From the IMG/VR virus record IMGVR_UViG_3300000115_000043, positions 1 through 36,873 of that record: a DNA stretch of 36,873 bases, one strand, 5' to 3'. The DNA is from a virus. Under the pieces are notes generated by a model. That model was not told the origin of the DNA, made no database searches, and saw nothing but the letters and a program-made list of their open reading frames with translations. Numbering within the stretch: position 1 is the stretch's first letter; every line of letters begins with the position of its first letter. A program made the position numbers and the translations under genes. Of this stretch, positions 3,883 to 36,833 are shown piece by piece.

Positions 3883-3904
3883 ATTCTCCTTTGTTTTTTG
3901 ATAG

Positions 3905-4174: not shown

Positions 4175-4234
4175 AAAATTTGCAATTGTGCAAGGATATG
4201 TTAAACTTTTTAATACTAATAGAGGAGAGCAAAT
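4175..4234. promoter_or_regulatory. Divergent intergenic region with inverted repeat and candidate promoter
   Basis: This 60-base gap separates the minus-strand accessory operon from the divergent HTH gene and must hold both start signals. It contains an inverted repeat TTGCA-ATTG-TGCAA (4180-4193), a plausible operator. On the plus strand TTGTGC (4186-4191) could be a poor -35 box for TAATAC (4211-4216). That would put the transcript start near the AGAGGAG ribosome-binding site and give a very short leader. The HTH protein encoded beside it is an obvious candidate to bind the repeat (inference). Confidence 0.4.
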
Positions 4235-8627: not shown

Positions 8628-11600
8628 ATGGCTGACTTTAGTATATTAGTTGCAGCGAAAGCTTCCTTAAAACAAGCTCAATCACAATTATCATCTTTTG
8701 GTGCTAACGCGTCCAAAACAATAACTAAATTTACTTCTGGATTATCCGCAGCAGTGGGTACTGCAGCAATGGGTACTTTAGCTGGTCTTGCTTTGGCAAT
8801 GGCTGGTGGTGCAGCAGCTGCAGTTAAATTCGAAAACGAATTTGCAAATGTAAAAAAGACTATGAACGATGTTCAAGATCCGCAGGTCTTTAAAAATATA
8901 TCAGATGACATTCTTCGTTTATCAACAGAGATACCAATTATGGCAGGGGAACTTGCAGGTATTGCAGCAGTTGGTGGACAGTTGGGAATTGGAGCAGATG
9001 ATATCTCTAGTTTCACAGAAGTTGTTGCTAAATTAGGTACAGCTACAAACATGTCTGCAGAACAAGCAGCAACCTCAATGGCAAGATTTCTTAATGTTAC
9101 CAATGAACAAACAGATGCTATTGGTAAATATGCAGCAGTACTCGTTGAATTAGGAAACAGTACAGCAGCAACAGAAGGAGAGATAATTCTTCTTGCACAA
9201 AACTTTGGTGCCACAGGTAGCATAGTTGGTTTGAGTACAGAAGAGATACTTGCTTTCTCAGCAGCAATGAGAGAGACAGGTCAGCAGTCTCAAGCAGGTG
9301 CTACAGCTCTAGGTAAATTATTTTTAAATCTCTCTGACGCAGCAAAACTTGGTGGCAGTGAAATGGCTCAGTTTGCAGAAACAGCAGGGATGGACATAAA
9401 TCAGTTTAGGAGATTAATAGAAACTGACATAGGAGAAGCAGCACAAATATTCTTAGGTGGTCTGAACTCCATGAATGAAGAGGGAAGATCAACAACTGCA
9501 ACATTAGAAGAATTAGGTTTAGGAACTATTCGTGTACAAAGAGCTTTACTTTCTTTAGCAAACAACGAAGAAGGTTTAACCGAAGCAAGAAAGAGAGCTA
9601 ATGAACAAGCTATAACTCAAAATGCTTTGAATGATGAAGCAGCACAAAAATTCGAAACTGCTTCTATGAAAATAACACAGATCAAATCTGCTCTTAATGC
9701 AGCTGCAATAACTTTTGGAGAAATATTTTTACCTGTTCTTAAAATAGTCCTAGATGCCTTGATTGGTTTCGTTGCAGTTCTTCAAGCTGTAGCTGAAATG
9801 TTTAGAGAAATGCCTGGGTTGTTAGCAGGTCTCGTAGCAATTCTTTCAGTATTGTCTGGAATGTTTATTAAAACAGGTGTAGCTACTTCAGGTTTTGCTG
9901 CAGCATTTTCTAAAGTCTTAGCTATAGGTCTCAGATTTATGGGAATAGCAGGTATCGTAGTGGGTGCATTTGCTCTAATTGGAAAAGCAGTAAAGAAATA
10001 TAGAGATGATATAAAAGATGCAGAAGAAGTTTCTTCTGCTGTAGATGGAATTATTAGCAAAATAAAAGTTGACTTAACAAAAGGTTTTGATGCAGAACCT
10101 ATAACAAAAGAAGAATGGACAGATTTCTTAGCTAACTTACCTGAAGCAACAAAAGAAGCAGTTGAACAAGGTGTCAAAAAAGGCATGCTTGGAGAAGAAG
10201 TGTTCAACGCAATAGTTAGTAGTGCTGATGGATTACCGAAAGCATTTAATGCAGCATTCGCTGATGTTGTTGATCTAGATGAAGGCTTTTTCGCTAGCGG
10301 AGACATGGACATTGGCGAAGTTACAAAAATGATTGAAATGATTAAAGACGCAGGATTAGAACAACAACTTGCTCCTGTTCTAAAAACTCTAGAGCAGTAT
10401 AAATCAGCTCTTAGTACTTCAACTAAAAAATCTAGAGAGCAAAGAGAAGAACTAATGGAAATCTTAAAAGTTCAGTTTTCAATATTCCAAGGTGTAGAGA
10501 ACGAAAAAGCAGCTCGTGATGAAATGATTTCAGGAGCGTTAAACAAGCATTTTGAACATGTAGGTAAAATAGATCGCAGAACTGTAAGTCTTCTTAAGAC
10601 AGAAGAAGGTAGATTAAAGCTAGCTAAAGAACTTGCTAATGGACCTAATGGTATCAAAGTATTTAAAGACATACTTGGAGATACTGTAGGAGTTGCAGAA
10701 GAGTTAAATGAAGAGTTCGAAGGGACAGAGACAAACTTAGATTCTTTGTTAAGAATATCTAATGACTTTAGAAATAAGATAGATAAACTATTTAACCCAA
10801 TCAAAGAACAATTTGAATTACAAAAAAATGAGAGAGACTTAGCTAAAGCACACAAAGAACATGCTGATTTACACAAAGAACAGAAAAAACTAACTGCAGA
10901 CGATCTCACTCTACAACAAGAATTACAAGACCTTGCTTCTGCCAATCTTGAAACTGAAGAAGAAAAATTAGAAATACAAGAATTAAATAACGAAGCTCTT
11001 GAAATAGAACAGAAGATAAGAGAAGGAAATGCTCTATCTGCTGATCAATTTTTAAAGAAAGAAAAACTCAAAAAAGAATTAGCTCAAGTTAATGCTGCTA
11101 TATCTCAAGGCTCTTTAGAGTTCCCTGAAAAGGAACGACAATTTATTCAAGATCAAATAGATGCTATTGACGAAAAAGCATTGACTCAAAAAGATGCTGA
11201 TGATAAGCGTAAAAAAGCTGGAGAGATAGCACAAACAGCTGAAGAGAGAAGACTACAAGCTATTAATGATATTGAGCAAGAAAGAATACAAATAGGGGAA
11301 AGACTAGCAGAAATCCCTGATGAAATATTAGACACACATCAAGACATTCACGAATTACAAAGAGATCTTGTTGGCAATCAACTTGATATGATACAGGCTC
11401 AATCAGATTACAACACTCTAAAACAAGATGAACTTAAGATGACTGCTGAATTACTCGGAATGAATATGGCTCAAATTGATGGTCTTATGACTTTAATGAA
11501 TCATGTGAGAGTAGAGTCAGGACCTATGGGTCAAGGTTATTTAGATAAGTTGCTAGGAAACCTACCTCAGCTTATGACTTTGTTAGGTTATGACACAGGT

Positions 11601-11945
11601 AATTCAATTACAGGTCCTCAAGCAGATAGTTTGTATAAAAGTTTTATGTCAATGGGTAGCAGTTATGCAAATATGAAACCTACTTTCAGACACATGGGTG
11701 GTAACTTCAAACCAGGACAAAACTATGTTGTCGGAGAATATGGTCCAGAAATGATGAAAGCTTTCCCAGGTGGTGGTGGTCAGATTACTCCTATGGATTC
11801 AAGTAGAGGAGACACTGTAAATAATGTTACACTTAATGTAACAGGTCTTCCTTCTGATCCAATCTCCGCAAGAAGGACAGCACAACTAATACAAAAAGAA
11901 TTAAATAAACTTAAAGGAGATGGAAGGTCAGGCGTTGTTAGGTAA
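8628..11945 (+). CDS. Tape measure protein, 1105 aa
   Basis: Sets tail length and is ejected with the DNA. Residues about 70-330 match the TP901-type core (FENEFANVKKTMNDV, PIMAGELAGIAAVGGQLG, TNMSAEQAATSMARFLNVT). Hydrophobic segments lie near residues 40-65 and 360-450 (LLAGLVAILSVLSGMFI, FMGIAGIVVGAFALIG). A long charged coiled coil follows at about 720-930. The C-terminus has the common FRHMGGNFKPGQNYVVGEYGPEMM element. No lysozyme or peptidase domain is evident. At about 0.15 nm per residue the tail would be close to 165 nm. The ATG follows the frameshifted chaperone stop by three bases, with AGGAG about 9 bases upstream. Confidence 0.95.
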   Translation: MADFSILVAAKASLKQAQSQLSSFGANASKTITKFTSGLSAAVGTAAMGTLAGLALAMAGGAAAAVKFENEFANVKKTMNDVQDPQVFKNISDDILRLSTEIPIMAGELAGIAAVGGQLGIGADDISSFTEVVAKLGTATNMSAEQAATSMARFLNVTNEQTDAIGKYAAVLVELGNSTAATEGEIILLAQNFGATGSIVGLSTEEILAFSAAMRETGQQSQAGATALGKLFLNLSDAAKLGGSEMAQFAETAGMDINQFRRLIETDIGEAAQIFLGGLNSMNEEGRSTTATLEELGLGTIRVQRALLSLANNEEGLTEARKRANEQAITQNALNDEAAQKFETASMKITQIKSALNAAAITFGEIFLPVLKIVLDALIGFVAVLQAVAEMFREMPGLLAGLVAILSVLSGMFIKTGVATSGFAAAFSKVLAIGLRFMGIAGIVVGAFALIGKAVKKYRDDIKDAEEVSSAVDGIISKIKVDLTKGFDAEPITKEEWTDFLANLPEATKEAVEQGVKKGMLGEEVFNAIVSSADGLPKAFNAAFADVVDLDEGFFASGDMDIGEVTKMIEMIKDAGLEQQLAPVLKTLEQYKSALSTSTKKSREQREELMEILKVQFSIFQGVENEKAARDEMISGALNKHFEHVGKIDRRTVSLLKTEEGRLKLAKELANGPNGIKVFKDILGDTVGVAEELNEEFEGTETNLDSLLRISNDFRNKIDKLFNPIKEQFELQKNERDLAKAHKEHADLHKEQKKLTADDLTLQQELQDLASANLETEEEKLEIQELNNEALEIEQKIREGNALSADQFLKKEKLKKELAQVNAAISQGSLEFPEKERQFIQDQIDAIDEKALTQKDADDKRKKAGEIAQTAEERRLQAINDIEQERIQIGERLAEIPDEILDTHQDIHELQRDLVGNQLDMIQAQSDYNTLKQDELKMTAELLGMNMAQIDGLMTLMNHVRVESGPMGQGYLDKLLGNLPQLMTLLGYDTGNSITGPQADSLYKSFMSMGSSYANMKPTFRHMGGNFKPGQNYVVGEYGPEMMKAFPGGGGQITPMDSSRGDTVNNVTLNVTGLPSDPISARRTAQLIQKELNKLKGDGRSGVVR

Positions 11946-12607: not shown

Positions 12608-13871
12608 TACAATGACCATAGGGAGAATTACATTTACTTCTCCAAACAGTATCAGAGAAAGTTCTATACAAACAGGACAAAGAAATTCATTAGATCGAAG
12701 CTTTAGCTTTAATGGAACTTTGTGTGGTACAGGTTCAGGTCAAGCCTACATAGATAGTTCAAAAAAATTAAGAGACGAATTAATCTCAATGGGTAATTCG
12801 GACTTATTACTACCTATTACTTATGAGGGAGATACAACTATGGAAGGATTTGGTAAAGTTACTTCTATGGATGTATCTCCTGTAAAACTTGCAACAGGTT
12901 ATTTTTCTTATCAAATAGGATTCGAGATGAAAGGTAGACCATCTGAAATGATGTTTGAATCAAATATGTCAGGTGCTCTAATACAAAACTCACACTCCAT
13001 TACAACATCTAGTACAACTTATGCACCTTGGCATGCTGTACCTGTAAATACTTTTAATTATAAAAATGATTCAAGACCTGTGGGTGCTACAAGGTCAACA
13101 GAAAATGGAGACTTGTCTTTTTTCTATGATGCAGATTTAAGAACTTATTCTTCTAATTGGATAATAGATCCTGTAGATTACTACAAGGGTGCAGCTAAAG
13201 TAACTATAGATAGCACAGTAAAAACAGGATATTTAACAAGGAATTTACCAACAGGCGTAGAGCTTTCTAATGGCATAGTTAAAATTACTTCAGGAAGTAC
13301 AACAGATGAATCTAGATTTACACTATCTTTCTATGACAATGGTGCTTATACAAGCGATAGGGAAATTGCAATATCTTCAGGTAGTTCAGAAACAGAATGG
13401 AATGTGTGGCAAACAGTACAGATTTTAAGAAATGAACCACAAGAAGTTGTTGTTAGATTTACTTCTTATTCAGATGATACTTTTGGAGATGGAAGACTTA
13501 CAGTTGACCTAGGGTTGAAGAGAGGTGCTCATCATGTTTCTATGGTTATCTCAGAGGGGGGAACTTCAGACAGAACTGCAAATACAAGAAAAAATCTTAA
13601 GCTAATTACCGCAAATACTGTTGCAGATGATACAGGATATATGATAGAAAGTAGTACAGACTTATCAGGACAAAAATTTATGATTGGGAGTCCCCAGGGA
13701 TATACAGCAGATACAACTAATAGATTGATACATTTATCGAATTCTCAGTTTAAATGCTTTTTAGGTTATGTTTATAACTCTGCTTCCCCTGAGAACCATA
13801 ACACTGCAGATGCAGTAAGAGACCAATACCTAGAAAGTTTGTACGAAAATATTCGTTTAGTGAGGGCATAA
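12600..13871 (+). CDS. Distal tail (Dit-like) protein, 423 aa
   Basis: First large protein after the tape measure, the usual place for the distal tail protein that forms the hub between tube and tip. The N-terminal 120 residues (MTIGRITFTSPNSIRESSIQTGQRN..., then GFGKVTSMDVSPVKLATGYFSYQIGFEM) show the strand pattern of tail-tube-like hub domains. The remaining 300 residues are beta-rich, with a possible carbohydrate-binding jelly roll (GLKRGAHHVSMVISEGG, TGYMIESSTDLSGQKFMIGSPQG). Evolved Dit proteins with inserted binding modules are known in other siphoviruses. The assignment rests on position and pattern rather than a signature motif. Confidence 0.6.
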   Translation: MANTMTIGRITFTSPNSIRESSIQTGQRNSLDRSFSFNGTLCGTGSGQAYIDSSKKLRDELISMGNSDLLLPITYEGDTTMEGFGKVTSMDVSPVKLATGYFSYQIGFEMKGRPSEMMFESNMSGALIQNSHSITTSSTTYAPWHAVPVNTFNYKNDSRPVGATRSTENGDLSFFYDADLRTYSSNWIIDPVDYYKGAAKVTIDSTVKTGYLTRNLPTGVELSNGIVKITSGSTTDESRFTLSFYDNGAYTSDREIAISSGSSETEWNVWQTVQILRNEPQEVVVRFTSYSDDTFGDGRLTVDLGLKRGAHHVSMVISEGGTSDRTANTRKNLKLITANTVADDTGYMIESSTDLSGQKFMIGSPQGYTADTTNRLIHLSNSQFKCFLGYVYNSASPENHNTADAVRDQYLESLYENIRLVRA

Positions 13872-16800
13872 TGGCAGTTACAGAAAGGCACATGGGTGTT
13901 GGTAACTTTACAGTATCTTTTTCTCAAGAGTTTACACCTACAGAAATAATTGAATCTATTAAAGAGTGGGGGCATATTGTCATAACTCCTCAAGAAGTAG
14001 ATGTTAATACTCTTTCAGACGCAGATGTTCTTTCTACTTCGAGATATACAGGTATAGTTTTAAATAGATCCTTAGAAGAAGGTGTAGTTGATATATCAGG
14101 ACAAGGATTACAACTCTACTTAGGAGATGGTCAGTCTAAAGGAATGGTCATTGCTGAATCTAAAAATGTTGGAAAAGTAAGAGTTTATACAAATACCACA
14201 TTGGCTGAAACTCTTTTCAACTCCTCAGTAAGCACAGGAAAACCTTATGGAATTCTAAGGAACGAGGCAGGTAATTCTCAAGCCATAACACAAGGTGTTA
14301 TTTACGAGCCAAGTGGAACTTATATTGGTCAACATTTTGTTCAAACAGCTTTATCTGCATTAAAAGAAGTCGCTGAATTTTTTAGCATAGAATATAGAGT
14401 TAATCCAAATGCAACTATTGACGCAGGTCCTGCAGCTAACTTATTTGCTGGAGTAAACTCCGATCCTTCAACAATTGTTGTTAAAACAGGATATGGAGAA
14501 GATCCAAACTTTGATGGCGTAGTACCTCAAGGACTAAGAACAGAGTTTGATGCAACTGATTGGGTTTCACGAGTAGACTTTGTCGGAGAAGTAGGATATT
14601 TCGACTCAGCAACTGATGTAGCTGGAGAAGCAAACATAGGTTCTAATCCTTATAAAGATTTACATGGAAACGCATTAAGTAGAAGTGGATTAGTCCAACA
14701 GCCTGAGATTGCTGTAAGTCAACTTAATTCAAGAGCACAACTTATGTTAAATGAGTTATCTAGAGTTAAAAAAGTTTTGAACTTAGATTTAGAGCAGTAC
14801 GAAGTTTCTGGAGATATGCAAGTTGGAGACTTTATATTTGCTTTTGATCCTGATATTGGATTTATAGACACTTCAGTTGACGCTACCGCAGAATCAAGAG
14901 ATTTATACGAAGTTACTTTTAGAGGACAAATTATTACTCCTGTAAAAGTAAGAGTTGTAGGATTAACTTTCCCAATAGCAAATGGTATGGGTGTTTACTT
15001 TAGAGATAAAGATGGAAACTACACAGACCTAACTCAGTATGTTCAATTTGAATCTGGAGCAGCACAAGTAGAACTTGGCGATGTTATTAGATTTATTGGC
15101 GATGACCTACGATTTGATGAGTTTTCTTTAAACAGGGTAACTGCTGGCGTATTCTCTATTCCTGACCTACCAAGCACTCCTACGCTTCAATCAGGCACAT
15201 ATCTGAACGCAACAGGAGATTCAATAGGATTTATTCGTGTAACAGTGGCAAAACCGACTAATGTCGATGGATCTCAGATAACTGATGGTAGTCATTACAG
15301 AATAAGGTATAAAAAAACAACTGATGCACAATATTCTTATCAAAACTTTCCATTTACAGGTGTAAGTTCAGAGAGCTTATTAATACAAGATTTAACAGTA
15401 GGAGTTACATACGATGTAGGTGTTGCTGCAATTGATAAATCAGGATTCAAGAAAATGTCTACCTATGATGGATCAGGGGAAGATTTATATACTAATACGC
15501 CAAGTGTTAACGCTAGCTATGCCACTAACGCAAGAATAGAGATTGAAAAAGATGGTCAAGCACCAACTAAACCTAAAGCAGCAACTATTGCAGCAGGTCC
15601 ATTGCGTGTCCAGGTAACACATTATCTAGGAAAAGATGGAACAGATGGTAGTGGAAATCCTTTTGGTAACTTTACAATAGAAGGAGATGTTGACCACTTA
15701 GATATACATGCTGTTACACAAACAGACAATGTACAAAACTTTACTGTAAATACTGCAAATAAAATTGGAGAGATCAGAGTCACTTCAGGAAACCTACTTC
15801 AACAAATTCCTGTTATAGGAACAATTGAGTTGGAGGATTCAACAGACCAATACTTTAGAATAGTAGCTGTTGATAAATCAGGTAATGAGTCCGATCCTTC
15901 TGATGGGCAAACTGCAACAGCTAACTTAATTGCTGAATCTAACATAACAGATGCAACTATTACTACAGCCAAAATAGGAGAAGCTCAAATAACAAACGCT
16001 CTTATTGCAGATGCAACAATAACTACTGCAAAGATAAATGACCTATCAGCAGATAAAATAACATCAGGAACTATTACAGGTGGAGAGATAACTGTTGGTG
16101 GTGTTTCAAATACTTCAGGGTTTATAAAATCTTATAACTACTCAACAGGTTCTGCAGGTTTTAGTATTAATTCAGATGGAACAGCAGAGTTTCAAAACGC
16201 AACTATTAGAGGTACTTTAAATGCTTCTGATATAACTGCAGGAACACTAAATGTAAATGCTTTAACTTCTGATGGAAGTATTGATGGAGATAAAATAACC
16301 GCTAACTCTATTACAACAAGTGAACTTAATTTTACTCCTGCTACTTCTAGTGATTTATCAAACTATGTAACGATAAGTTCTACTACTGCAGGAACATTAG
16401 ATATTATTGCTGACGATGTAGAAATACAAGGCAACTTAAGTGCTACAGGAACTATTACAGCAGATGCAGGATTTGTTAGTGGTGTTGCTATTGTTCCTAC
16501 TTCTACAACTTCTGCAGTTAATATGAACGATACCTCTACTTTAACAGACAGTCTTACACTTTCAGGTAGTGGTCAATTTAGAACTGCTTCGTCTGGTCAA
16601 AGAGTAGAAATATCTTCTGCTTTTGGACCAGAAGTAAGATTTTTTAATTCATCAGGTACTGATGTTGGTGCATTATCTCAATCAGCATCTCTTGTACAGC
16701 TTAGAACAGGAGCTATTGCATCTAATAATATGCAAATTTTAGCTTATGGAAATCTTAATATTGCTGCTGCAGGTTCTGATGGAATTAATTTTTCTAGTGG

Positions 16801-17734
16801 TGCAGCAGGTACAGGACAACCAGAAATAAGAATTGGTGGAGTAGCAGGTAGTAATAAATATTTAATAGTAGATTCTCAGGGTAAATTAGATTATTCTTCC
16901 TCATCTGTATCAGGTGGTGTTACTTCTATAACTGCAGGTGGAGAACTTTCTCTTGCAGGTGCAGGTACAGGAGATGTAACTATTACACACGCTGATTCTG
17001 ACCACGATAATCAGTATTATACAAAAGACACTATGAACACCTTACTTGGTGCTAAATCAAGTACAAGTCATGGTCATAATTATGGTAACTCGAACCTCAC
17101 TGATAGTGATGTAACTAATAACTCTGCAGTGCAGACAGGTTTTAATCATGCAAATTCTGGTCATGTAAGTAATAACAGTGTAAATCTTGCTATTCAATTA
17201 CATTCAGGAGATGCAAACGCACACCACAGTGAAAACTTTGTTGCTCAACATGATAACAATGAACATAGTACAGATTTTGCTTCTCTAAGTAGTTATAACA
17301 ATCACTTGAATAACTTACACTTTTCTGACCAAAGACTCAAAAATGATGTACAAGAGACTACTTTTGGGCTTGATTTCATAAACAAGCTTAGACCTGTTGA
17401 TTTCACATGGGACAGTCTTTACTTAGATACATACTATGATGAAGAATATTTTAGTGAACTCAAATCGCTTTTAGGTAATCAACAACAAGGTTTTATAGCT
17501 CAAGAAGTAAAGCAAGCTGTGTATGAAACCAATCAGTCCAATACTGATTTTGGAGGCTTTTTATCTGTAAATATAACAGAAGAAGATCAATTAATTAAAG
17601 ATGAAACAGGGACAACAGACGACATAAACAAACTTGATTACTTACAATTTATAGGTCCATTAGTTAAGTCAGTTCAGCAACTATCAGCTAAGATAGAAGT
17701 ACTAGAAGCAAGAATTGATGAGCTAGAAGGTTAA
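13871..17734 (+). CDS. Tail-tip / fibre protein with FnIII-like and C-terminal Peptidase S74 chaperone domains, 1287 aa
   Basis: Probable central tail-tip and receptor-binding protein. The first 370 residues are tail-hub-like. A fibronectin-III-like domain lies near 430-540 (HYRIRYKKTTDAQYSY...DLTVGVTYDVGVAAIDKSG), followed by a second beta domain with a DKSGNESDPSDG motif. Then comes the ITDATITTAKIGEAQI repeat typical of the spike part of J-like proteins, and a collagen-like or beta-helical shaft. The C-terminal 136 residues are an intramolecular chaperone of the endosialidase (S74) type. FSDQRLKND holds the predicted autocleavage serine at 1152, and the domain ends in the coiled coil VQQLSAKIEVLEARIDELEG. 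The chaperone should trimerise the fibre and then release itself. RBS-less taATG overlap with the Dit-like gene. Confidence 0.85.
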   Translation: MAVTERHMGVGNFTVSFSQEFTPTEIIESIKEWGHIVITPQEVDVNTLSDADVLSTSRYTGIVLNRSLEEGVVDISGQGLQLYLGDGQSKGMVIAESKNVGKVRVYTNTTLAETLFNSSVSTGKPYGILRNEAGNSQAITQGVIYEPSGTYIGQHFVQTALSALKEVAEFFSIEYRVNPNATIDAGPAANLFAGVNSDPSTIVVKTGYGEDPNFDGVVPQGLRTEFDATDWVSRVDFVGEVGYFDSATDVAGEANIGSNPYKDLHGNALSRSGLVQQPEIAVSQLNSRAQLMLNELSRVKKVLNLDLEQYEVSGDMQVGDFIFAFDPDIGFIDTSVDATAESRDLYEVTFRGQIITPVKVRVVGLTFPIANGMGVYFRDKDGNYTDLTQYVQFESGAAQVELGDVIRFIGDDLRFDEFSLNRVTAGVFSIPDLPSTPTLQSGTYLNATGDSIGFIRVTVAKPTNVDGSQITDGSHYRIRYKKTTDAQYSYQNFPFTGVSSESLLIQDLTVGVTYDVGVAAIDKSGFKKMSTYDGSGEDLYTNTPSVNASYATNARIEIEKDGQAPTKPKAATIAAGPLRVQVTHYLGKDGTDGSGNPFGNFTIEGDVDHLDIHAVTQTDNVQNFTVNTANKIGEIRVTSGNLLQQIPVIGTIELEDSTDQYFRIVAVDKSGNESDPSDGQTATANLIAESNITDATITTAKIGEAQITNALIADATITTAKINDLSADKITSGTITGGEITVGGVSNTSGFIKSYNYSTGSAGFSINSDGTAEFQNATIRGTLNASDITAGTLNVNALTSDGSIDGDKITANSITTSELNFTPATSSDLSNYVTISSTTAGTLDIIADDVEIQGNLSATGTITADAGFVSGVAIVPTSTTSAVNMNDTSTLTDSLTLSGSGQFRTASSGQRVEISSAFGPEVRFFNSSGTDVGALSQSASLVQLRTGAIASNNMQILAYGNLNIAAAGSDGINFSSGAAGTGQPEIRIGGVAGSNKYLIVDSQGKLDYSSSSVSGGVTSITAGGELSLAGAGTGDVTITHADSDHDNQYYTKDTMNTLLGAKSSTSHGHNYGNSNLTDSDVTNNSAVQTGFNHANSGHVSNNSVNLAIQLHSGDANAHHSENFVAQHDNNEHSTDFASLSSYNNHLNNLHFSDQRLKNDVQETTFGLDFINKLRPVDFTWDSLYLDTYYDEEYFSELKSLLGNQQQGFIAQEVKQAVYETNQSNTDFGGFLSVNITEEDQLIKDETGTTDDINKLDYLQFIGPLVKSVQQLSAKIEVLEARIDELEG

Positions 17735-17736
17735 TT

Positions 17737-17946
17737 ATGGTTATAGAAGAGTTTAAGTTTTCAGGACGAGAAAAAACCGATCAAGAAAAAATAATAGAGT
17801 TAAAATCTACAATTGAGTTTTTAGAAGATAAATACATAGAAGAAACAGCTAAAGAAGAACCTATAGCCGAAATAGTTACTAAATTAGAAACAGATATTAT
17901 TTCTAAAAGAGAAGAATACGAATCCCTTGGAGGAATTTACGATTGA
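17737..17946 (+). CDS. Small coiled-coil protein, 69 aa
   Basis: Charged and helical (EKIIELKSTIEFLEDKYIEE...), with heptad spacing over most of its length and an aromatic end. It starts three bases after the S74-containing fibre gene and its stop overlaps the TTG start of the next gene. Small coiled-coil proteins beside fibre genes are often assembly helpers. That role is inferred from position only. Confidence 0.7.
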   Translation: MVIEEFKFSGREKTDQEKIIELKSTIEFLEDKYIEETAKEEPIAEIVTKLETDIISKREEYESLGGIYD

Positions 17947-18710
17947 AGTATTCGTTGGGGGGCAAACAATTCATAGAGTTCAAAACAGATGTAGAAGGTC
18001 TTGAAGAATTTGCACCTGTAAAACCTTCTAGTTTTTATTTACCTAAATGGTTTAAGAGTATGTCTGAAGCAATAGAAGTGGATGCTCAACATGAAAAAGG
18101 TAAACCTAATTACTTTGGTAAAAAAGGAGATACAGCCAAAAAGTTTTCAACAGGAACAGTCAAAAGATGTCCAGCTATTGTCGATTTAATTACCGAGGGT
18201 TTCATAATACCAATGTGGTGTGATTTTCTTGTACAAAGAGATATGGAAACTATTGAGTGGGATAATAAAAATTTTAAGTATGGTCTTGAGTTTCATAGTC
18301 AAAAACAAATCGCTGGGTGGGATTTAAAAAAAACAGACTTTTCAGAAGCAGTAAAGTTTGTCAATCCTTGGAGAATATATACACCACCAGGTTATTCAGT
18401 AATGTTTTTAGCACCAACATACCAATTTGAAAGAAGATTTACAGTATTACCAGGTATTGTAGAAACTGACAATTACAACTCAGTTAACTTCCCAACAGTA
18501 TGGCACACAACTAAGGATGCTATAATTGAAAGAGGAACGCCATTTATACAGGTAATTCCATTTAAAAGAGACAAATGGAATCTAGATGTATCTCAAATGA
18601 CAGATGAAGATATTCGTGCAGAGGGAATTCAAAGAAATACTCTCGGTACGAAATTCAAAAATTCCTACAGAGATTTAATTTCTAGGAGAAAGAATGCCAG
18701 AACTAACTAA
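17943..18710 (+). CDS. Conserved-looking phage protein of unknown function, 255 aa
   Basis: A soluble, aromatic-rich protein with features I associate with a hypothetical family found in marine phages next to tail fibres: the N-terminal KPSSFYLPKWFKS, the central VKRCPAIVDLITEGFIIPMWCDF, and VNPWRIYTPPGYSVMFLAPTY. The function is unknown to me. The start is TTG, overlapping the previous TGA (TTGA), with GGAGG about 9 bases upstream. No better ATG lies near the conserved start. The repeated WKRDKWNLD-like segment near the end suggests a beta-sheet enzyme or a binding fold, but no catalytic motif is recognisable. Confidence 0.75.
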   Translation: MKYSLGGKQFIEFKTDVEGLEEFAPVKPSSFYLPKWFKSMSEAIEVDAQHEKGKPNYFGKKGDTAKKFSTGTVKRCPAIVDLITEGFIIPMWCDFLVQRDMETIEWDNKNFKYGLEFHSQKQIAGWDLKKTDFSEAVKFVNPWRIYTPPGYSVMFLAPTYQFERRFTVLPGIVETDNYNSVNFPTVWHTTKDAIIERGTPFIQVIPFKRDKWNLDVSQMTDEDIRAEGIQRNTLGTKFKNSYRDLISRRKNARTN

Positions 18711-20149: not shown

Positions 20150-23100
20150 ATGGCAGCAAAAAATCCAATAAGAGGCGATTATTCGGGTTCCGATTTAGTC
20201 GGTTTTGCAGAGTTTCAAGCAACAGACTTTATAGCAATAGCTGATGGTGGTACAGGTGCAATTTCTTCAGCAGGTGCTAGAACTGCTTTAGGAATAGCAA
20301 TAGGTTCTGATGTACAAGCTTACGATCCTCAACTTACAGATGTAGCTAACTTAACTCCTACAGATGGTGGTTTTATAGTCGGAGATGGTTCAAACTTTGT
20401 TTTAGAATCAGGAAATACAGCTAGATCTTCACTAGGATTGTCCTCTTCGGATAGTCCACAATTTACAGGTTTAACATTAACTTCTATATCTATTGATAGT
20501 GTTACCTTATCTACAATAGTTACAGAATCCGAAGGTATGTCTGGATCAGACAATGACACTTCTGTTCCAACAACTGCTGCAATAATAGACTACATATCCA
20601 ACACTGTTGATACTACAGAAGAAGTACAAGACATTGTTGGAGCTATGGTCACAAGCAATACCGAAACATTAATCGGTGTTACTTATGACGATAGTGATGG
20701 TACTTTAGACTTCGTTGTTGATAATGATTTAGCTAATTACTCCAATACAAACTCAGCTTTTATAACAAAATCAGGGATAAGTGTTACAGACTCAGGTGGA
20801 GATGGTAGTTTAAGTTATGATAATTCAACAGGGATTATCACTTATACAGGTCCTAGCTCTACAGAAGTAAGAGCCCATTTATCAGCAGGTACAGGTGTTT
20901 CTTATTCTTCGGGTCAATTTAGTATTGGTCAAGATGTAGGAACTACTGCAGATGTAACTTTTAATAGTGTTGCAGGAAATGTTACAGGAACTGTTTCTTC
21001 TATTGCTAATCATGATACAGATAGCTTAAGTGAAGGAACGACCAATCTTTATTACACAAGTGCTAGAGCCAACTCAGACTTTGACACAAGATTAGCTACT
21101 AAAGATACAGGAGACTTATCAGAGGGCAGTAATTTATACTTTACTAACGCAAGAGTTGATACTGAAATAGACAGCTATCTTAGTGGAGGAACAGGAGTTG
21201 CTGTATCCTCAGGAGTAATAAGCATAGGACAAGCTGTTGCCACAACCTCAGATGTTACTTTCAATGACTTAACAGTTTCAGGAGACTTAACTGTAAGCGG
21301 TACCACTACAACAGTAAATACCGAAACCATTGCTTTAGCTGACAACATAATAGTTTTTAATTCAAACGCAACAGGTTCTGCTACAGAAAATGCAGGAATA
21401 GAAATTGAGCGTGGAGATGACACTAACAAAACATTAATTTGGGATGAGAGTGCTGATAAATGGACAGTAGGATCAGAGACATTTATTGCAGGGACTTTTG
21501 AAGGAGCCTTGATTGGAGATGTCACTGGTAATGTTACTGGAGATGTAACAGGAGATATTGATGGTGCAATAATACTATCTGGTAAGAATCAAACAGGTTC
21601 TACAATTGGTGCAGGTGTACCAGTTTATATATCTGGGCAAGCATCTTCTGGAACAGAATTTACAGTAGCACCAGCAGATGCAGATGGTTCTGGAACAATG
21701 CCAGCAATTGGTATAACAACTGCTTCAACTAATAATAACGCAGCAGTATCAATATTAACTTTTGGTAAATTTGTAGGTTTAGATACTTCCTCGTTCTCAG
21801 TTGGAGATTCTCTTTATGTATCAACTTCTGGAACTTTAGTTAACACTCCTCCTACAGGAGAAAGTGCTTTACTTCAAAAAATCGCAAAGGTAACAAGAAG
21901 TCACGCATCAGATGGTGCAATATTTGTTCAAGGTGCAGGTAGAAGTAATGCAGTACCTAACTTAGATGATGGAGATATATTTATAGGTAATGCTTCTAAT
22001 CAAGCAGTTACTGCTAGCTTTAATACAACTTTCGATACCCAACTTGCAACAAAAGATACTGATGACTTATCAGAAGGTACTAACTTATATTTCACAGACG
22101 AAAGAGTAGATGACAGACTCAATAACTTATTAGTCGCAGGAAGTAATATAACTCTTACCTATGATGATTCTGCTAATACTCTTACTATTGCAGGGGTTGA
22201 AGATAACTTTGCTAATAATACAACAGATGATTTAGCTGAGGGATCAACCAATTTATACTTTACAAACGCTAGGGCTCAATCTGCTCTTACAGGCGGAACA
22301 GGAATCTCTAATACTTCAGGAACTCTAGCAATAGACTTTACTGAATTCGATACAGATAATGTTGTTGAAGGAAGCTCTAGTTTATACTTTACAAATGCTA
22401 GAAGTAGAGGTTCAGTATCTGTAGCTTCGGGTTCAGGTTTAACTTACAATAGTTCTACAGGAGAGTTTGGAACTTCTTCAATACCTAATGCTCAATTGGC
22501 CAATAGTGCAATAACTATAAACTCAAACGCAGTTTCTCTTGGTGGATCAGTTAGTTTAGACACTGATGACATTACAGAGGGTAATAACCTTTACTACACA
22601 ACAGGAAGATTTGATACAGCATTAGCTACAAAAGATACAGATGATTTAACTGAAGGGTCAACTAATCTGTACTACACAGATGCTAGAGTCGAAAGCTATA
22701 TTAGTGGCGGAACAGGTATTGACTTCTCTTCAGGTGCTATATCCATAGACTCAACAGTAGTAACAGAAAGCTCAACAGATACACTTACTAATAAAACAAT
22801 TAGCTTTGAAGACAATACAGCAATTGTTACTTTTGCTGTTACTGTTTCTAGTGCTTCAGGTTCTAATAAATACTTTTTAGATGGAGAGAGTTCTGCAAGC
22901 GTTCAATTAATACCAGGCGTTACATACAGGTTTGATCAATCAGATAACTCTAACTCTGGACACCCTTTTGCTTTGTCAACAAGTGAAGATGGAACCAATT
23001 ATACAACAGGAGTAACTACCAATGGAACAGCAGGTTCCTCAGGTGCTTATACTCAAATAGTTGTAGATGGTGCTACTGCAGATAGATTATTCTACAAATG

Positions 23101-26100
23101 TACAGCTCACTCAGGAATGGGTGGCGGTGTATTGGAAGTACAAGGAAGTGCAATAGTTGAATTTGCTGTAACTGTTGCAAATGTTAGTGGTAATAAGTAT
23201 CACTTAGATGGAGAAACAGCAGCAAGTGTACAACTCATACCTGGAATGGTATATAGATTTAATCAATCAGACTCTTCAAACTCAGGACACCCATTTAGAC
23301 TATCTTCAACAAAAGATGGTACACACAACAGTGGATCTGAATACACAACAAAGGTAACAACCTCAGGTACTCCAGGTTCTGCAGGTGCATATACTCAGAT
23401 TGTTGTTGACGCAGCAACTTCAGATTCTTTATATTACTATTGTTCCTCACATTCAGGAATGGGTGGGAATGCTGTTATATCTGTTCAGGGTGTCTCTCTA
23501 GCAGATAGTGATACAGATGATTTAACAGAAGGCAGTTCTAACCTTTACTTTACTAATGCAAGGGCTAGAAGTGCAATATCTGTAACTGATAGTGGTGGAG
23601 ATGGTTCTTTATCATACAACAGTTCTACAGGAGTAATAACCTTTACAGGTCCATCTGCTGCTGAAGTCAGAGCACACATATCTGTAACAGATTCAGGTGG
23701 AGATGGTTCTTTAGCTTACGATTCAGGAACAGGTGTAATAACATACACAGGACCTAGTGCTTCAGAAACAAGAGCTCATTTTACAGCAGGAACAGGTATT
23801 GGAATATCCTCAGGAGAAATCAGTATAGGTCAAGCAGTTGCTACAACCTCTGATGTAACATTCAACGATCTTATCGTATCAGGAGATTTGACAGTATCAG
23901 GAACAACTACAACAGTTAACACTGAAACAATAAACCTTGCAGATAATGTAATTACTTTAAATAGCAACGAAACAGGAACACCAAGTCAAAATGGTGGTAT
24001 CGAAATAGAGCGTGGTACTTCAACTAACAAAACTCTTATTTGGAATGAAACTGATGACAAATGGACAATAGGTTCTGAAACTTTTGTAGCAGGAACTGTA
24101 GAAGCTAACTTAACAGGAAATGTAACAGGTAATGTTGCAGGAAATGTAACAGGAACAGTATCTGATATATCTAACCACGATACTGATAGTCTTACAGAAG
24201 GTAGTAGCAATCTATATTTTAGTAACGAAAGAGTTGATGATAGAGTTAGCTCTTTACTGACAGCAGGAACTAATGTTTCACTAACTTATGATGACTCAGC
24301 TAATACATTAACAATTGCTTCAACTGATACAAATACACAGCTTTCACAAGAACAAGTAGAAGATTTTGTTGCAGGAGTTGTTACTGCAGGTACAGGAATA
24401 TCTGTTACTTATGATGATAACGCAGGAACATTAACAGTTGCGAATACTGCTTCAACAAGTACAGAAGATGTACAGGATATTGTTGGCTCACAGATTGTAA
24501 CAAATGGTTCACACACAGGTATTTCATTTGCTTATGACGATGCTAATGATGGTGCTATAGACGCAACAGTTTCATTATCAGGATTTAGTACAAGTAACTT
24601 AGCTGAGGGAACTAATCTTTACTACACAACAGCAAGAGCAAATACAGATTTCGATACAAAGATAGCAGCAGCAGATACAGGAGACTTATCCGAAGGAACA
24701 AATCTTTACTATACAAATGCTAGAGCTGATGCAAGAATTGCAGCTGCTGATATACAAGACCTTTCAAATGTAGGTTTTTCTGCACCAGGAGCCACAGAAG
24801 ATCAGAAAGTTATTACTTGGGACAACTCTGCAGGTAGCTTTGCACTTTCTTCAGTATCTGGTCTTTCAGGTTCAGGAGAAACAAACACAGCTTCTAATGT
24901 TGGAACTGCAGGTGTAGGTGTCTTTAAAGGTAAAACAGGCGAAGATTTACAGTTCAAGAAAATAAATGCAGGTTCAGCCAAGATAACAATTACAGATGAT
25001 ACTTCTAATGACGAAATAGATATTGACTTTGGTTCTGTAGCTGCAGGAGACTTAAGCGATGTAACTACTTCAGGCGTTACAAATGGTCAAGCATTAGTTT
25101 ATAGTTCAAGCAACTCAAGATTTGAACCAGGTAATGTTACTGCAACAATAAGTGGACTTACTGATACAACAATCAGTTCATTACAAGCAAATCAATTCAT
25201 AAAATATAGTGGTTCAGCTTGGGTAAATGTAACTGTAGATACAGACGACATTGGCGAAGGTTCAACAAACCTTTACTACACTGACGCTAGAGCACAAGCT
25301 TCTATTACAGGTGGAACAGGTATTTCAAACACTTCAGGTACTCTTGCTATAGATTTTACAGAGTTTGATACAGATAGCTTAACTGAAGGTTCAAGCAACC
25401 TCTTTTATACAAGCACAAGATTTAACACTGATCTAGCAACTAAGACAACAGATAATCTTACAGAAGGTTCTACTAACCTTTATTTCACTAATGCGAGAGT
25501 AGATACAGAAATTGATTCATATTTATCAGGTAGCACAGGTGTCACATACTCAGGTGGAGCAATATCTATTGGACAGGCAGTTGCAACAACTTCTGATGTA
25601 ACCTTTAATGATCTGACAGTATCTGGCGATTTAACAGTTTCTGGAACTACAACTACAGTCAACACAGAGACAATCAACTTAGCTGATAATACAATTACTC
25701 TAAATTCCAATGCTACAGGCTCAGCAACTGAAGATGGTGGTATTGAAATTGAGAGAGGTAGTGATACTAATAAGACACTTCTTTGGAATGAAACTACAGA
25801 TAAGTGGACAGTTGGTTCAGAAACATTTGTAGCTGGAACATTTGAAGGTAATGCAACAGGACTTACAACTACAGCATTTACAGGATTAACTGCAGACAGT
25901 TCTCCTGCTGATGACGACCTCGTTATGGTTTATGACTCAAGTGCTAGTGCTTACAAAAAGGTAACAAAATCAAACTTTGCTGGTAGTGCTAGTGGAGGAC
26001 TCACAGGTGCATTAGACTTTACACTTGCAGATACAACAGAAGACGATATTGACTTCTTAAATCTTGGAGCAACAGGAACAGATGTAGAGGTAACTCTAAC

Positions 26101-26746
26101 AGATGGAACTGTAGATCCAATACAAATCACTTCAACAAGTGCAAGTGCTACAGCTTTCTCAGATAATGATAACGATACAAAGATACAGGTAGAAACAACT
26201 TCTGATATTGATGATATTAGAATCTTTACTGCAGGTTCAGAAAGAATGCGAATTGAATCTGATGGTGTTGTCGATATCAAGTCAGCAAAACTTAAAATTA
26301 ATGGTGGTGCAGGAACAAATGGTCAAGTACTTACTACAGGTGGCGATGGAACAATAAGTTGGGCTGATACAGTCTCTTCATTAGCTGCTAATGACTTAAC
26401 AGATGTAGCAACTTCAGGACAAGCTTCAGGAGACAGCTTAGTTTTCAATGGTTCAAATTATGTTCCTCAAAGACCTACAAATATAGAAGATGCTGATGGA
26501 GATACAAGAGTTCATGTAGAAGAAAGCTCTGACGAAGATAAAATACGATTTGATACAGGTGGTAGCGAGAGATTTGTTATGGATACAAATGTTACCGCTT
26601 CAGCACAAGGTGGTTTCTTCTTACATAGACAAACCCTGGCTTCAGGAGAGAGTTTTTCAATAGCCTCAGACACAGGAACAGTAGCAGCAGGTCCAATGGA
26701 TGTAGAAGGAACATTAGACATTGCAGGTACATTGGTTGTTGTATAG
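20150..26746 (+). CDS. Giant repetitive tail fibre with two cupredoxin-like domains, 2198 aa
   Basis: The largest gene in the window. About 14 copies of the element D.DDL.EG.(T/S)NLYFTNAR occur along it, interspersed with strands of the form GTGI..SSG.ISIG. Three 95-residue modules (residues 358-452, 1225-1319, 1806-1900) are near-identical in protein sequence. Two tandem cupredoxin-like domains lie at about 891-1000 and 1001-1114. Their copper-type ligand sets are His938, Cys984, His987, Met990 and His1047, Cys1098, His1101, Met1104. The C-terminal 250 residues hold SERMRIESDG and a final strand-rich cap (GSERFVMDTN...). There is no chaperone domain. It is probably a very long trimeric shaft reaching the cell surface. 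Confidence 0.85.
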   Translation: MAAKNPIRGDYSGSDLVGFAEFQATDFIAIADGGTGAISSAGARTALGIAIGSDVQAYDPQLTDVANLTPTDGGFIVGDGSNFVLESGNTARSSLGLSSSDSPQFTGLTLTSISIDSVTLSTIVTESEGMSGSDNDTSVPTTAAIIDYISNTVDTTEEVQDIVGAMVTSNTETLIGVTYDDSDGTLDFVVDNDLANYSNTNSAFITKSGISVTDSGGDGSLSYDNSTGIITYTGPSSTEVRAHLSAGTGVSYSSGQFSIGQDVGTTADVTFNSVAGNVTGTVSSIANHDTDSLSEGTTNLYYTSARANSDFDTRLATKDTGDLSEGSNLYFTNARVDTEIDSYLSGGTGVAVSSGVISIGQAVATTSDVTFNDLTVSGDLTVSGTTTTVNTETIALADNIIVFNSNATGSATENAGIEIERGDDTNKTLIWDESADKWTVGSETFIAGTFEGALIGDVTGNVTGDVTGDIDGAIILSGKNQTGSTIGAGVPVYISGQASSGTEFTVAPADADGSGTMPAIGITTASTNNNAAVSILTFGKFVGLDTSSFSVGDSLYVSTSGTLVNTPPTGESALLQKIAKVTRSHASDGAIFVQGAGRSNAVPNLDDGDIFIGNASNQAVTASFNTTFDTQLATKDTDDLSEGTNLYFTDERVDDRLNNLLVAGSNITLTYDDSANTLTIAGVEDNFANNTTDDLAEGSTNLYFTNARAQSALTGGTGISNTSGTLAIDFTEFDTDNVVEGSSSLYFTNARSRGSVSVASGSGLTYNSSTGEFGTSSIPNAQLANSAITINSNAVSLGGSVSLDTDDITEGNNLYYTTGRFDTALATKDTDDLTEGSTNLYYTDARVESYISGGTGIDFSSGAISIDSTVVTESSTDTLTNKTISFEDNTAIVTFAVTVSSASGSNKYFLDGESSASVQLIPGVTYRFDQSDNSNSGHPFALSTSEDGTNYTTGVTTNGTAGSSGAYTQIVVDGATADRLFYKCTAHSGMGGGVLEVQGSAIVEFAVTVANVSGNKYHLDGETAASVQLIPGMVYRFNQSDSSNSGHPFRLSSTKDGTHNSGSEYTTKVTTSGTPGSAGAYTQIVVDAATSDSLYYYCSSHSGMGGNAVISVQGVSLADSDTDDLTEGSSNLYFTNARARSAISVTDSGGDGSLSYNSSTGVITFTGPSAAEVRAHISVTDSGGDGSLAYDSGTGVITYTGPSASETRAHFTAGTGIGISSGEISIGQAVATTSDVTFNDLIVSGDLTVSGTTTTVNTETINLADNVITLNSNETGTPSQNGGIEIERGTSTNKTLIWNETDDKWTIGSETFVAGTVEANLTGNVTGNVAGNVTGTVSDISNHDTDSLTEGSSNLYFSNERVDDRVSSLLTAGTNVSLTYDDSANTLTIASTDTNTQLSQEQVEDFVAGVVTAGTGISVTYDDNAGTLTVANTASTSTEDVQDIVGSQIVTNGSHTGISFAYDDANDGAIDATVSLSGFSTSNLAEGTNLYYTTARANTDFDTKIAAADTGDLSEGTNLYYTNARADARIAAADIQDLSNVGFSAPGATEDQKVITWDNSAGSFALSSVSGLSGSGETNTASNVGTAGVGVFKGKTGEDLQFKKINAGSAKITITDDTSNDEIDIDFGSVAAGDLSDVTTSGVTNGQALVYSSSNSRFEPGNVTATISGLTDTTISSLQANQFIKYSGSAWVNVTVDTDDIGEGSTNLYYTDARAQASITGGTGISNTSGTLAIDFTEFDTDSLTEGSSNLFYTSTRFNTDLATKTTDNLTEGSTNLYFTNARVDTEIDSYLSGSTGVTYSGGAISIGQAVATTSDVTFNDLTVSGDLTVSGTTTTVNTETINLADNTITLNSNATGSATEDGGIEIERGSDTNKTLLWNETTDKWTVGSETFVAGTFEGNATGLTTTAFTGLTADSSPADDDLVMVYDSSASAYKKVTKSNFAGSASGGLTGALDFTLADTTEDDIDFLNLGATGTDVEVTLTDGTVDPIQITSTSASATAFSDNDNDTKIQVETTSDIDDIRIFTAGSERMRIESDGVVDIKSAKLKINGGAGTNGQVLTTGGDGTISWADTVSSLAANDLTDVATSGQASGDSLVFNGSNYVPQRPTNIEDADGDTRVHVEESSDEDKIRFDTGGSERFVMDTNVTASAQGGFFLHRQTLASGESFSIASDTGTVAAGPMDVEGTLDIAGTLVVV
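21221..25849 (+). repeat. Three 285-bp modules, same protein but different codons
   Basis: Copies lie at 21221-21505, 23822-24106 and 25565-25849 inside the giant fibre gene. All begin SIGQAVATTSDVTFND and run through TVNTETI to GSETF.AGT.E. Over the 29 codons for TSDVTFND...TETI, the first and third copies have no amino-acid difference, yet 24 of the 29 codons differ. The second copy is likewise recoded, with one amino-acid change in that stretch. Confidence 0.85.
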
Positions 26747-34202: not shown

Positions 34203-34532
34203 ATGGCAATATATACAGCAGCCGAACTAAATGCTAGTGAGACACTTGGTACTTCTGAAGCTGAAATTTTCAGTAACAGTAACAAAATAATTATCAAGCA
34301 ACTCATATTGGCAAACTACACAGCTACTGATAGAACTGCACAAGTTAAAGTTGTACCTTCAGGTGGAACTACAGGAGATGAGCATATCATTTTTGGAGAT
34401 ATAACTGTGCAAGCTAACACAACTCAAGTCATTGACTTGGCTATGGTTGTTGCAGCTAATGCGTCTATCAGAGGTTTAGCTAGTGCAGCTAGTTCAATAA
34501 ATGTACATATTTCTGGCGTAGAGGTTACCTAA
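34203..34532 (+). CDS. Small beta-sandwich tail protein, 109 aa
   Basis: Same length and layout as the gene at 31007: opening strand, SN.(K)IIIKQLILANYT, then strands, VQANTTQVIDLAMVVAANASIRGLASAASSINVHISGVEV. It may belong to the same family of fibre-tip or decoration proteins. ATAGGAGAATAA precedes the ATG. One-base overlap with the glycine-rich fibre gene that follows. Confidence 0.7.
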   Translation: MAIYTAAELNASETLGTSEAEIFSNSNKIIIKQLILANYTATDRTAQVKVVPSGGTTGDEHIIFGDITVQANTTQVIDLAMVVAANASIRGLASAASSINVHISGVEVT

Positions 34533-36172
34533 TGCCTGAGATTCAGATACCTGAACCAATCTTTTTAGAAAGACTTGGTGGGGAAGAAATATATGGTTTT
34601 GGACAAGATGGAGATGTAACAATATCTTCTAATACTTCACTTACTCGTGATATGTATTACAACAACTTAACAATAAACTCAAGTTGTGATTTAGATACTA
34701 ATGGGTATAAAGTCTTTGTTAAAGGTACATTAACCTTTACAGATGCTACTTCTCGTATAGGTAGATTTACAGGAAAAGCTAGTGATGGAACTCTCAAAGG
34801 TGGACTCGCAGCAGGTACTGACGCTTCTGATACATTAGGAGGAAGATCTGCAGGGCAATTATATTTTGTTACAGAATACAACTCAGGTACTAGCAAACTT
34901 AGATTAGATGGTACAGATCAACCTACTCTTACAATGTATGTAGGCAATACCTATACCTTTGACCAAGTATCACAATTTGCAATAGGACATAGAGTCAAGT
35001 TCTCTACTAATAGTGATAACTCAACAGCTTACACAACAGATGTAACAGAGTCAGGGACACTAGGAACTGATGCTAAAACAACTATAGAAATAACAAGCAG
35101 TACTCCTTCCACTCTTTATTACTATGACGAAAGCCAAGCAAATGCAGGTGGAACTATAAACATTGTTTCAGAAGAACCTAATAAATTTTTTTCAGGTAGT
35201 AATGAGTTTTACAATCTAACAACAGCACTTACAGGAGTTAAGTTCGATCCAACCTCAGGAGAGTATAAATCTTTACAAGGTGGTTCAGGTGGTTCTGATG
35301 GTTCTGTTATTCATGCTGCTGGAACAGGAGCTGATGGAGGAGACTCCAATTGGTCTGATTATCAATCAGTAGGTGCCGATGGTGGTAAGGGAAACCCAGG
35401 TAACGCAGCTACTCCTGGAACAGGAGCTGTTGGAGGTGGAGTTGTTGTAGTAATCGCTAAAACAGTTTCAGGTAATGGAACGATCAGAGCAGATGGAGAT
35501 GATGCTTCTGCTCCTTCTCAAGGTACTGCAGGTACGCCTGCTCCAAACGCTACTACTCCAGGTAATACAAACACACACCCTGGAAATACAAATACACATC
35601 CTGGAAACAACTATTCTTATGGGTACTCTTATCCAGGTAATAATTATTCTTATGGTTATTCATACCCTGGAAACAACTACTCATATCCTGGAAATACTAA
35701 CGCTGCATATACGCACTATCACTATAACCATTATCATCCGCCTTCTCCTCCAATTAATAACTATGTAAGCCCAGGGTTTTCACATCAACATTATCATTTA
35801 CACCCAGGAAATACTAATGCAACAAACTATGGTTCAAATAACACGAACTATGGTTCTAACAATGGATCAAACTCTACAAACTATGGTTCTAACTATGGTT
35901 CAAATCCAACTAATTATGGTTCAAATCCAACTAACTATGGTTCAAATCCAAGCACTGCACATCCTGGTGGTGCAGGAGGATATGCAGGTAGAGCTAAAGG
36001 TGGCTTCAATGCAGGTGGTGGAACTGTTATACTTGTTACAGGTACCAAACCTTTACCAGGTTCTTTAACAGTTGCAGCTGCTGCAGGTACTTCAGGTGCA
36101 GGAACAGCAACATCAGGTACAGTCGTAACAGTTTACAATATCGCAGCTACAGATACAGATCCAGGAGCATAA
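34532..36172 (+). CDS. Glycine-rich tail fibre with degenerate cupredoxin-like insert and His-rich HxH tip, 546 aa
   Basis: Residues 20-75 (IYGFGQDGDVTISSNTSLTRDMYYNNLTIN) are shared with the gene at 36174. Residues about 110-212 are a cupredoxin-like domain. Its first ligand His153 is present, but the Cys position is Asp199 and the other ligands are missing. A glycine-rich segment follows (GGSGGSDGS, GAVGGGVVVVIAK). Then comes a low-complexity region of HPGN, YSYGYSYPGNN and NYGSNPT repeats, containing five HxH triplets at 395-397, 400-402 and 418-424. The C-terminus is glycine-rich again (GGTVILVTGTKPLPGSL). HxH triplets bind iron in the T4 gp37 fibre tip; the same is inferred here. Confidence 0.8.
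   Translation: MPEIQIPEPIFLERLGGEEIYGFGQDGDVTISSNTSLTRDMYYNNLTINSSCDLDTNGYKVFVKGTLTFTDATSRIGRFTGKASDGTLKGGLAAGTDASDTLGGRSAGQLYFVTEYNSGTSKLRLDGTDQPTLTMYVGNTYTFDQVSQFAIGHRVKFSTNSDNSTAYTTDVTESGTLGTDAKTTIEITSSTPSTLYYYDESQANAGGTINIVSEEPNKFFSGSNEFYNLTTALTGVKFDPTSGEYKSLQGGSGGSDGSVIHAAGTGADGGDSNWSDYQSVGADGGKGNPGNAATPGTGAVGGGVVVVIAKTVSGNGTIRADGDDASAPSQGTAGTPAPNATTPGNTNTHPGNTNTHPGNNYSYGYSYPGNNYSYGYSYPGNNYSYPGNTNAAYTHYHYNHYHPPSPPINNYVSPGFSHQHYHLHPGNTNATNYGSNNTNYGSNNGSNSTNYGSNYGSNPTNYGSNPTNYGSNPSTAHPGGAGGYAGRAKGGFNAGGGTVILVTGTKPLPGSLTVAAAAGTSGAGTATSGTVVTVYNIAATDTDPGA
35560..35952 (+). repeat. Low-complexity minisatellite-like repeats encoding Pro/Gly/Asn/Tyr units
   Basis: Two in-frame arrays. The first (35560-35703) repeats HPGN and YSYGYSYPGNN units. 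The second (35825-35952) repeats the nonapeptide-like NYGSNPT unit. The HxH stretch lies between them. Unit lengths are multiples of three, so copy number changes would keep the frame. Confidence 0.85.
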
Positions 36173-36173
36173 C

Positions 36174-36833
36174 ATGGCAATAATAGAAATCGGAGTAACA
36201 CCAACAGACTATGAATCATTTGATGTAATACCTGACAGCATATATGGCTCAGGAATGGATGGTAATGTAACTATCTCGTCTAATACAACATTGACTAGAG
36301 ATATGTACTATAACAATCTAACAATAAATGATGACATACACTTAGACACAGCAGGATATAGAGTATTCGTAAGAAATTCATTAATGATGTCTAACACTAA
36401 CTCAGAGCAAGCAACTTGCTCAATAGGTAGAAAAGGTGCTGCTAGTACAACAGGAACGCTTAAAGGTGGTACTACAGGAAACGCTACTGATAGTGTAGGA
36501 GGAGCAGGAAATGGAACGACAGCTACTGCACCAACAGAAACCCTTAATTATTTTAACCACCCTGACTTAGCAATAACAGGAGTGATAGTCCATGGTGGAG
36601 ATTCAACACCTTCTCCTATATTTGGGGGATCGGGAGATACTGTAAATGCAGGTGGAGGAATAGTTGTATTATGTGCAAGAAACATAAGTGGCTATGGGAC
36701 TGTTTATGCAACAGGAGAATCTACTACAGGTGGTGGAGCAATATTTTTAGTTAGCCAAGACATACCTTTGACAGGTTTAGCAACCGATGTCACAGGACAT
36801 AGCAATGGTAATGTCAAAACCTTTAAGGTGTAA
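36174..36833 (+). CDS. Glycine-rich tail fibre, short paralogue, 219 aa
   Basis: Residues 18-70 (IPDSIYGSGMDGNVTISSNTTLTRDMYYNNLTIN, then LDTAGYRVFVRNSL) are close to the start of the gene at 34532. The C-terminal GGGIVVLCARNISGYGTVYATG and GGGAIFLVSQDIPLTG match the glycine-rich strands of that protein. It lacks the cupredoxin-like insert and the His-rich arrays. AGGAGCATAAC precedes the ATG. It probably arose by duplication of the larger gene or gave rise to it. Confidence 0.8.
   Translation: MAIIEIGVTPTDYESFDVIPDSIYGSGMDGNVTISSNTTLTRDMYYNNLTINDDIHLDTAGYRVFVRNSLMMSNTNSEQATCSIGRKGAASTTGTLKGGTTGNATDSVGGAGNGTTATAPTETLNYFNHPDLAITGVIVHGGDSTPSPIFGGSGDTVNAGGGIVVLCARNISGYGTVYATGESTTGGGAIFLVSQDIPLTGLATDVTGHSNGNVKTFKV

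Follow-up and report, generated by a model that had tools for sequence, protein, structure and literature searches.

Sequence evidence for a proposed antiparallel hairpin, locked residue by residue and turning at a histidine cluster, in a glycine-rich phage tail protein

The tail protein gene and its surroundings

The window analysed here is a stretch of viral DNA of 36,873 nucleotides (IMG/VR record IMGVR_UViG_3300000115_000043, positions 1 to 36,873), and all features of the tail protein and its paralogue described below lie on its plus strand. The viral genome record is 46,390 bases long. Near the end of the tail gene block, which includes a tape measure gene (8628-11945) and a tail tip gene with an S74 chaperone domain (13871-17734), an ORF call at 34532-36172 gives a tail protein of 546 aa (P0001). 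Residues 27-211 match the tail fibre profile phrog_30742 (E=1.2e-10); only one of 25 relatives matches this profile at 1e-3, so the family at large can be called tail fibres only tentatively. The next ORF, at 36174-36833, encodes a paralogue of 219 aa with the same scaffold, recognised by its identity to the N-terminal scaffold of the tail protein, and this pair of genes recurs in relatives. The closest named phages, taken from the neighbouring fibre gene and from residues 122-210 of the tail protein, are mostly marine, namely Synechococcus, Roseobacter and Pelagibacter phages, and from these matches a marine host is likely. Elsewhere, three proteins of one genome, encoded at 17943-18710 in the window and at 3430-4314 and 5099-5842 in L122, appear similar by eye, the first of them matching phrog_7084 (function unknown, E=7.6e-76).

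The tail protein is built from several distinct parts. Its N-terminal scaffold (residues 18-109, 34583-34858) is common with the downstream paralogue, at 57% identity to 36234-36518, and within it residues 31-80 were modelled by AlphaFold2 with a pLDDT of ~83-88. There follows a cupredoxin-like inserted domain (residues ~110-212, 34859-35167), delimited by alignment and 37% identical to two copies in the same phage's 2198-aa fibre; by alignment it is present in the window and in relatives L001, L002 and L010 and absent from the others. Residues 116-209 hold a degenerate copy, and the 2198-aa fibre itself (20150-26746) carries two cupredoxin-like repeats (GHPF ... FYKCTAHSGMGG) in which the set of copper-site residues seems complete, the Pfam Copper-bind match being weak (E=0.15). 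A glycine-rich scaffold containing GGGVVVVIAKTVSGNGTIRADGD comes next (residues 250-341, 35279-35554), defined by invariant columns and modelled in part by AlphaFold2. It leads into an outgoing arm of PGNNYSY and GYSY units (residues 342-394, 35555-35713), a histidine-rich tip (residues 395-424) and a returning arm of PTNYGSN and YGSN units (residues 425-476, 35804-35959), the two arms being delimited by their length lock and complementarity, and a C-terminal glycine-rich scaffold, HPGGAGG...GGGTVILVTGTKPLPG..., placed by alignment, completes the protein (residues 477-546, 35960-36169). The excursion formed by arms and tip is held between two glycine-rich scaffold strands, and the paralogue next door has none at that place.

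The tip reads HYHYNHYHPPSPPINNYVSPGFSHQHYHLH and corresponds exactly to nucleotides 35714-35803. Alignment and histidine counts divide it into an H.H..H.H module, a PPSPPINNYVSPGFS turn and an H.H.H.H module, so that its eight histidines make up four non-overlapping pairs and, read with overlap, five HxH triplets (HYH, HYH, HQH, HYH and HLH). The sequence-only reading of this DNA had drawn attention to five such triplets within 30 residues, and they are indeed there and far above chance, shuffled sequences of this protein with its 13 histidines averaging 0.29 HxH and never reaching five in 20,000 shuffles.

Three scans of viral contigs yielded 30 distinct excursion sequences, or 31 with that of the window, a set with few and mutually related members. 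Scanning with only the tip and the returning arm brought back the same contigs and no others, and a search of genome contigs found no relatives. All 31 sequences have exactly five HxH, with all eight histidines invariant; loss of the pattern in relatives that keep the repeats, which the sequence-only reading had named as evidence against its proposal, is seen in none of them. Each has one H.H.H.H module (HTHYHWH, HQHYHLH or HQHYHFH) and one H.H..H.H module (HYHYAHSH, HYHYNHYH and similar), and the residues between the histidines vary (T/Q, W/L/F, S/W/Y/T). Both CAT and CAC are used at each of the eight histidine columns, which indicates that the pattern is kept by selection at the protein level and does not reflect a DNA repeat.

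Equal lengths and complementary units in the two arms

Arm length was counted as the residues between the invariant RAD[GA]D and the first histidine (L) and as those between the last histidine and the following [PT]GG[AR]GG motif (R), these two anchors being the sole choice that the comparison required. Every one of the 31 sequences gives a difference L - R of 24, with R ranging from 40 to 67 and taking 13 values; when partners were shuffled, the match averaged 4.2 of 31 and reached at most 14 of 31 in 100,000 trials. On a tree of the scaffold built without the excursion there are at least 17 changes of arm length, each equal in both arms. The nearest pair, L015 and L103, have almost the same DNA, and between them each arm shows the loss of one codon, ~9-12 residues from the tip and at roughly mirrored places.

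The arms also correspond in composition. By eye, from the tip outward, the 4-residue GYSY faces YGSN or YGAN, the 7-residue PGNNYSY faces PTNYGSN, and the rarer 6- and 9-residue units face units of their own length. The Tyr/Asn/Gly/Pro repeats previously described as a low-complexity frame around the histidines are real, but they are not just low-complexity sequence, being ordered units laid out in two arms. We assigned residues to two classes, X (YSY, TNTH) and Y (NYG[SATN]N and close variants), which were set after inspecting the sequences, and with these classes X lies opposite Y at 616 of the 616 positions classified on both sides, like never facing like; the fraction with shuffled partners has a mean of 0.56 and a maximum of 0.81. 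YSY centres stand opposite an NYGS-type centre at exactly equal height in 180 of 207 cases, against 17% (maximum 33%) after shuffling. Four mosaic sequences (L002, L010, L019 and L097) have arms that exchange types partway, and they do so at equal height on both sides. A direct (parallel) arrangement of the arms was also tried and gave at best 433 complementary against 21 alike, the mirror arrangement being better at 616:0. A search of the DNA for inverted repeats that might have produced the mirror found none.

The length lock and the mirror complementarity together strongly indicate antiparallel pairing of the arms. Mutual information favoured odd offsets (+1 and +3) for the register when arm orientations were pooled, and since these two are indistinguishable we claim no pairing at the level of individual residues. 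The window and the two relatives nearest to it have the histidine modules in the reverse order from the other 28 sequences, and all four combinations of arm orientation and module order occur (21, 7, 2 and 1), so that what is conserved is the pairing and not the order.

Proposed architecture and competing readings

On this strong sequence evidence we read the excursion as an antiparallel hairpin locked residue by residue. The 30-residue histidine stretch would form the turn of this long hairpin, which would project from a glycine-rich phage tail adhesin; the chain would reverse close to the conserved INN, with the histidines immediately beneath, and every residue of one arm would have a fixed partner in the other. 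The arms may pair as extended (beta) strands to give a stiff rod, which in the window would comprise ~52 residue pairs plus the tip and measure ~20 nm at 3.3 Å per residue, if the strands are extended. The 7-, 6- and 9-residue units would upset the regular inward and outward alternation expected of a plain beta ladder, which counts against this reading and makes any exact strand geometry tentative.

Such a hairpin is most likely oligomerised, presumably as a trimer with three outgoing and three returning strands like the needle of T4 gp37, and the alternating histidines of both modules would then point inwards and bind transition metal ions. On a strand, the four side chains of an H.H.H.H run share one face, as is usual for HxH metal sites; the H.H..H.H module carries a one-residue shift relative to plain alternation. 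In the established gp37 geometry each ion takes two histidines from each of three chains (see PMC11705849), so that eight histidines fit at most four sites, not five: up to four octahedral sites would be expected in a trimer, and one or two tetra-His sites in a monomer. The metal would pin the strands together at the tip, or the tip would be the part that contacts the host receptor, or both; by analogy with gp37, trimerisation and metal binding in its manner are plausible, and the ions may serve to grip or rigidly probe the host cell. Taken whole, with hairpin, oligomer and a metal-coordinating histidine tip on a glycine-rich adhesin, we judge this explanation to be probably correct, though we hold it with reserve.

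Structure prediction contributed little to the choice between this explanation and others. When run with 25 full-length relatives, AlphaFold2 left pLDDT below 50 in the arms and at 36-48 in the tip; a run on nine C-terminal parts whose arms were about equally long gave a worse model (mean pLDDT 31), again without resolving the arms. Low confidence of this kind, together with repeats that expand and contract, would be in keeping with arms and histidines that were drifting low-complexity sequence with no defined structure, yet disorder accounts for neither the length lock in 31 of 31 sequences, nor the 616:0 complementarity, nor the paired deletions. We consider such drift extremely improbable, and the length lock all but rules it out unless some unknown process at the DNA level copies length changes from arm to arm; no inverted repeat was found.

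The same hairpin could instead be monomeric, its two long strands alone projecting from a polyglycine adhesin like gp38, and the eight histidines of a single chain would then make one or two tetra-His sites (for Zn, Ni, Cu or Fe) or bind a receptor directly. Glycine-rich strands do lie on both sides of the insertion, and in Salmonella phage S16 gp38 the loops likewise leave a monomeric polyglycine sandwich (PMC6851490); given this resemblance of the scaffold the trimer assumption may be wrong. Other relatives, moreover, have different long and often His-rich excursions at the same place, as a variable receptor-binding loop predicts. However, a two-stranded ribbon of such length would be hard to hold straight and soluble alone, and no PDB chain matches the protein, gp38 included, so we regard a monomer as unlikely, while keeping it in serious view. 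Somewhat less probable again, to our minds, is a real hairpin whose histidines are free of metal in the virion and act in receptor contact, binding for instance carboxylates, phosphates or a host receptor that itself carries metal, or serve as a pH switch. The position of the tip would suit such a role, since arm complementarity would make it the outermost point of the excursion, but the eight histidines and their alternating spacing are strictly conserved where the intervening residues vary, which fits coordination geometry better than a contact surface.

Comparison with known fibres and the wider class

The sequence-only reading had suggested that this fibre might use the device of T4 gp37, a six-stranded antiparallel needle in which HxH motifs bind iron (PMC7291167, PMC9659904), without evident relation to that protein. 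No relationship in sequence was found: neither the single sequence nor a 25-sequence profile found a homologue among PDB chains, gp37 and gp38 included, a Pfam search of the tail protein gave no match, and a Foldseek search of the first, weak AlphaFold2 model against the PDB gave nothing below E=1.6. Likeness of device holds in part. As at the tip of gp37 and lambda Stf, the chain of a tail fibre protein would run out along a needle and back, here as judged from sequence only, and the HxH motifs are conserved at the turn of this putative out-and-back hairpin. In gp37, however, single HxH are spread along both arms (883, 915 and 929, then the head, then 966, 980, 989 and 998) and the turn bears a variable head of its own, whereas here they are packed within ~8 residues to either side of the turn and the arms have none; the histidines are themselves the head, and the arms consist of Tyr, Asn, Gly, Ser and Pro. 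The gp37/Stf arms, which served as a positive control for the length lock, are only loosely coupled, with outgoing/returning lengths, read off printed positions, of 46/57, 42/52 and 56/66 and an exception of 56/57 in L184, in contrast to the exact equality found here, and gp37 showed no pair of complementary repeat types. Within that family, a GTKTTSSFDY-type duplication occurs in L184 in the outgoing arm only, and in L160 in both. We would say that the excursion may work like, rather than be, a gp37 needle.

The fibre of Alteromonas phage R22Y is likewise marine, known from prediction as an AlphaFold trimer, and has six conserved HxH proposed to bind iron, but these align to gp37 and are spread over ~315 residues (24-340), and the consulted part of that report does not describe mirror arms (PMC11705849). 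S16 gp38 appears to resemble the present protein in its glycine-rich strands, hypervariable distal loops, place at the tail tip and similar style of scaffold, although a long hairpin or HxH cluster is not described in the part consulted (PMC6851490), and the 25-sequence profile search of PDB chains gave no match to it.

More distant relatives carry other sequences at the same scaffold position. L031, L035 and L039 have repeats of 15 and 18 residues of the NPNNAPTYTYTAG type and lack HxH; their TYTYTAG repeat arrays have spacings that seem palindromic around a unique tip, those of L035 running 15, 18, 15, 15, 18, 15 from the tip outward on both sides. A mirror shuffle test was suggestive only for L031 (P=0.008) and L035 (P=0.04) and uninformative for L039 and L032, and a mirror score from residue identity was noisy in these relatives. 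Possibly the arrays of L031, L035 and L039 are a length-locked hairpin in another alphabet. Very His-rich excursions stand at the same position in L036, L042, L043, L047 and L048; in L043 (D/S)NHHHT-type repeats form a pair of similar blocks, each with a Cys at its end, that resemble a metal-binding array.

We found no description of mirror arms of this kind in the open-licence literature, and on balance we think that this is a fibrous architecture not described before, in which two repeat 'letters' (YSY/PGN and NYGSN/PTN) would be obligatorily opposite, the length lock would be exact to the residue, the rod extendable and the tip interchangeable, with four plus four histidines here and, at this point of the scaffold in distant relatives, other tips and alphabets. 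The pairing rule is simple, a unit of type X facing one of type Y with lengths equal, and strand pairing can be read from protein sequence through length covariation, as RNA stems are, which is informative where structure predictors leave a region blank. If the tip binds iron, an unrelated and probably marine phage lineage would join those for which iron-carrying tails have been proposed.
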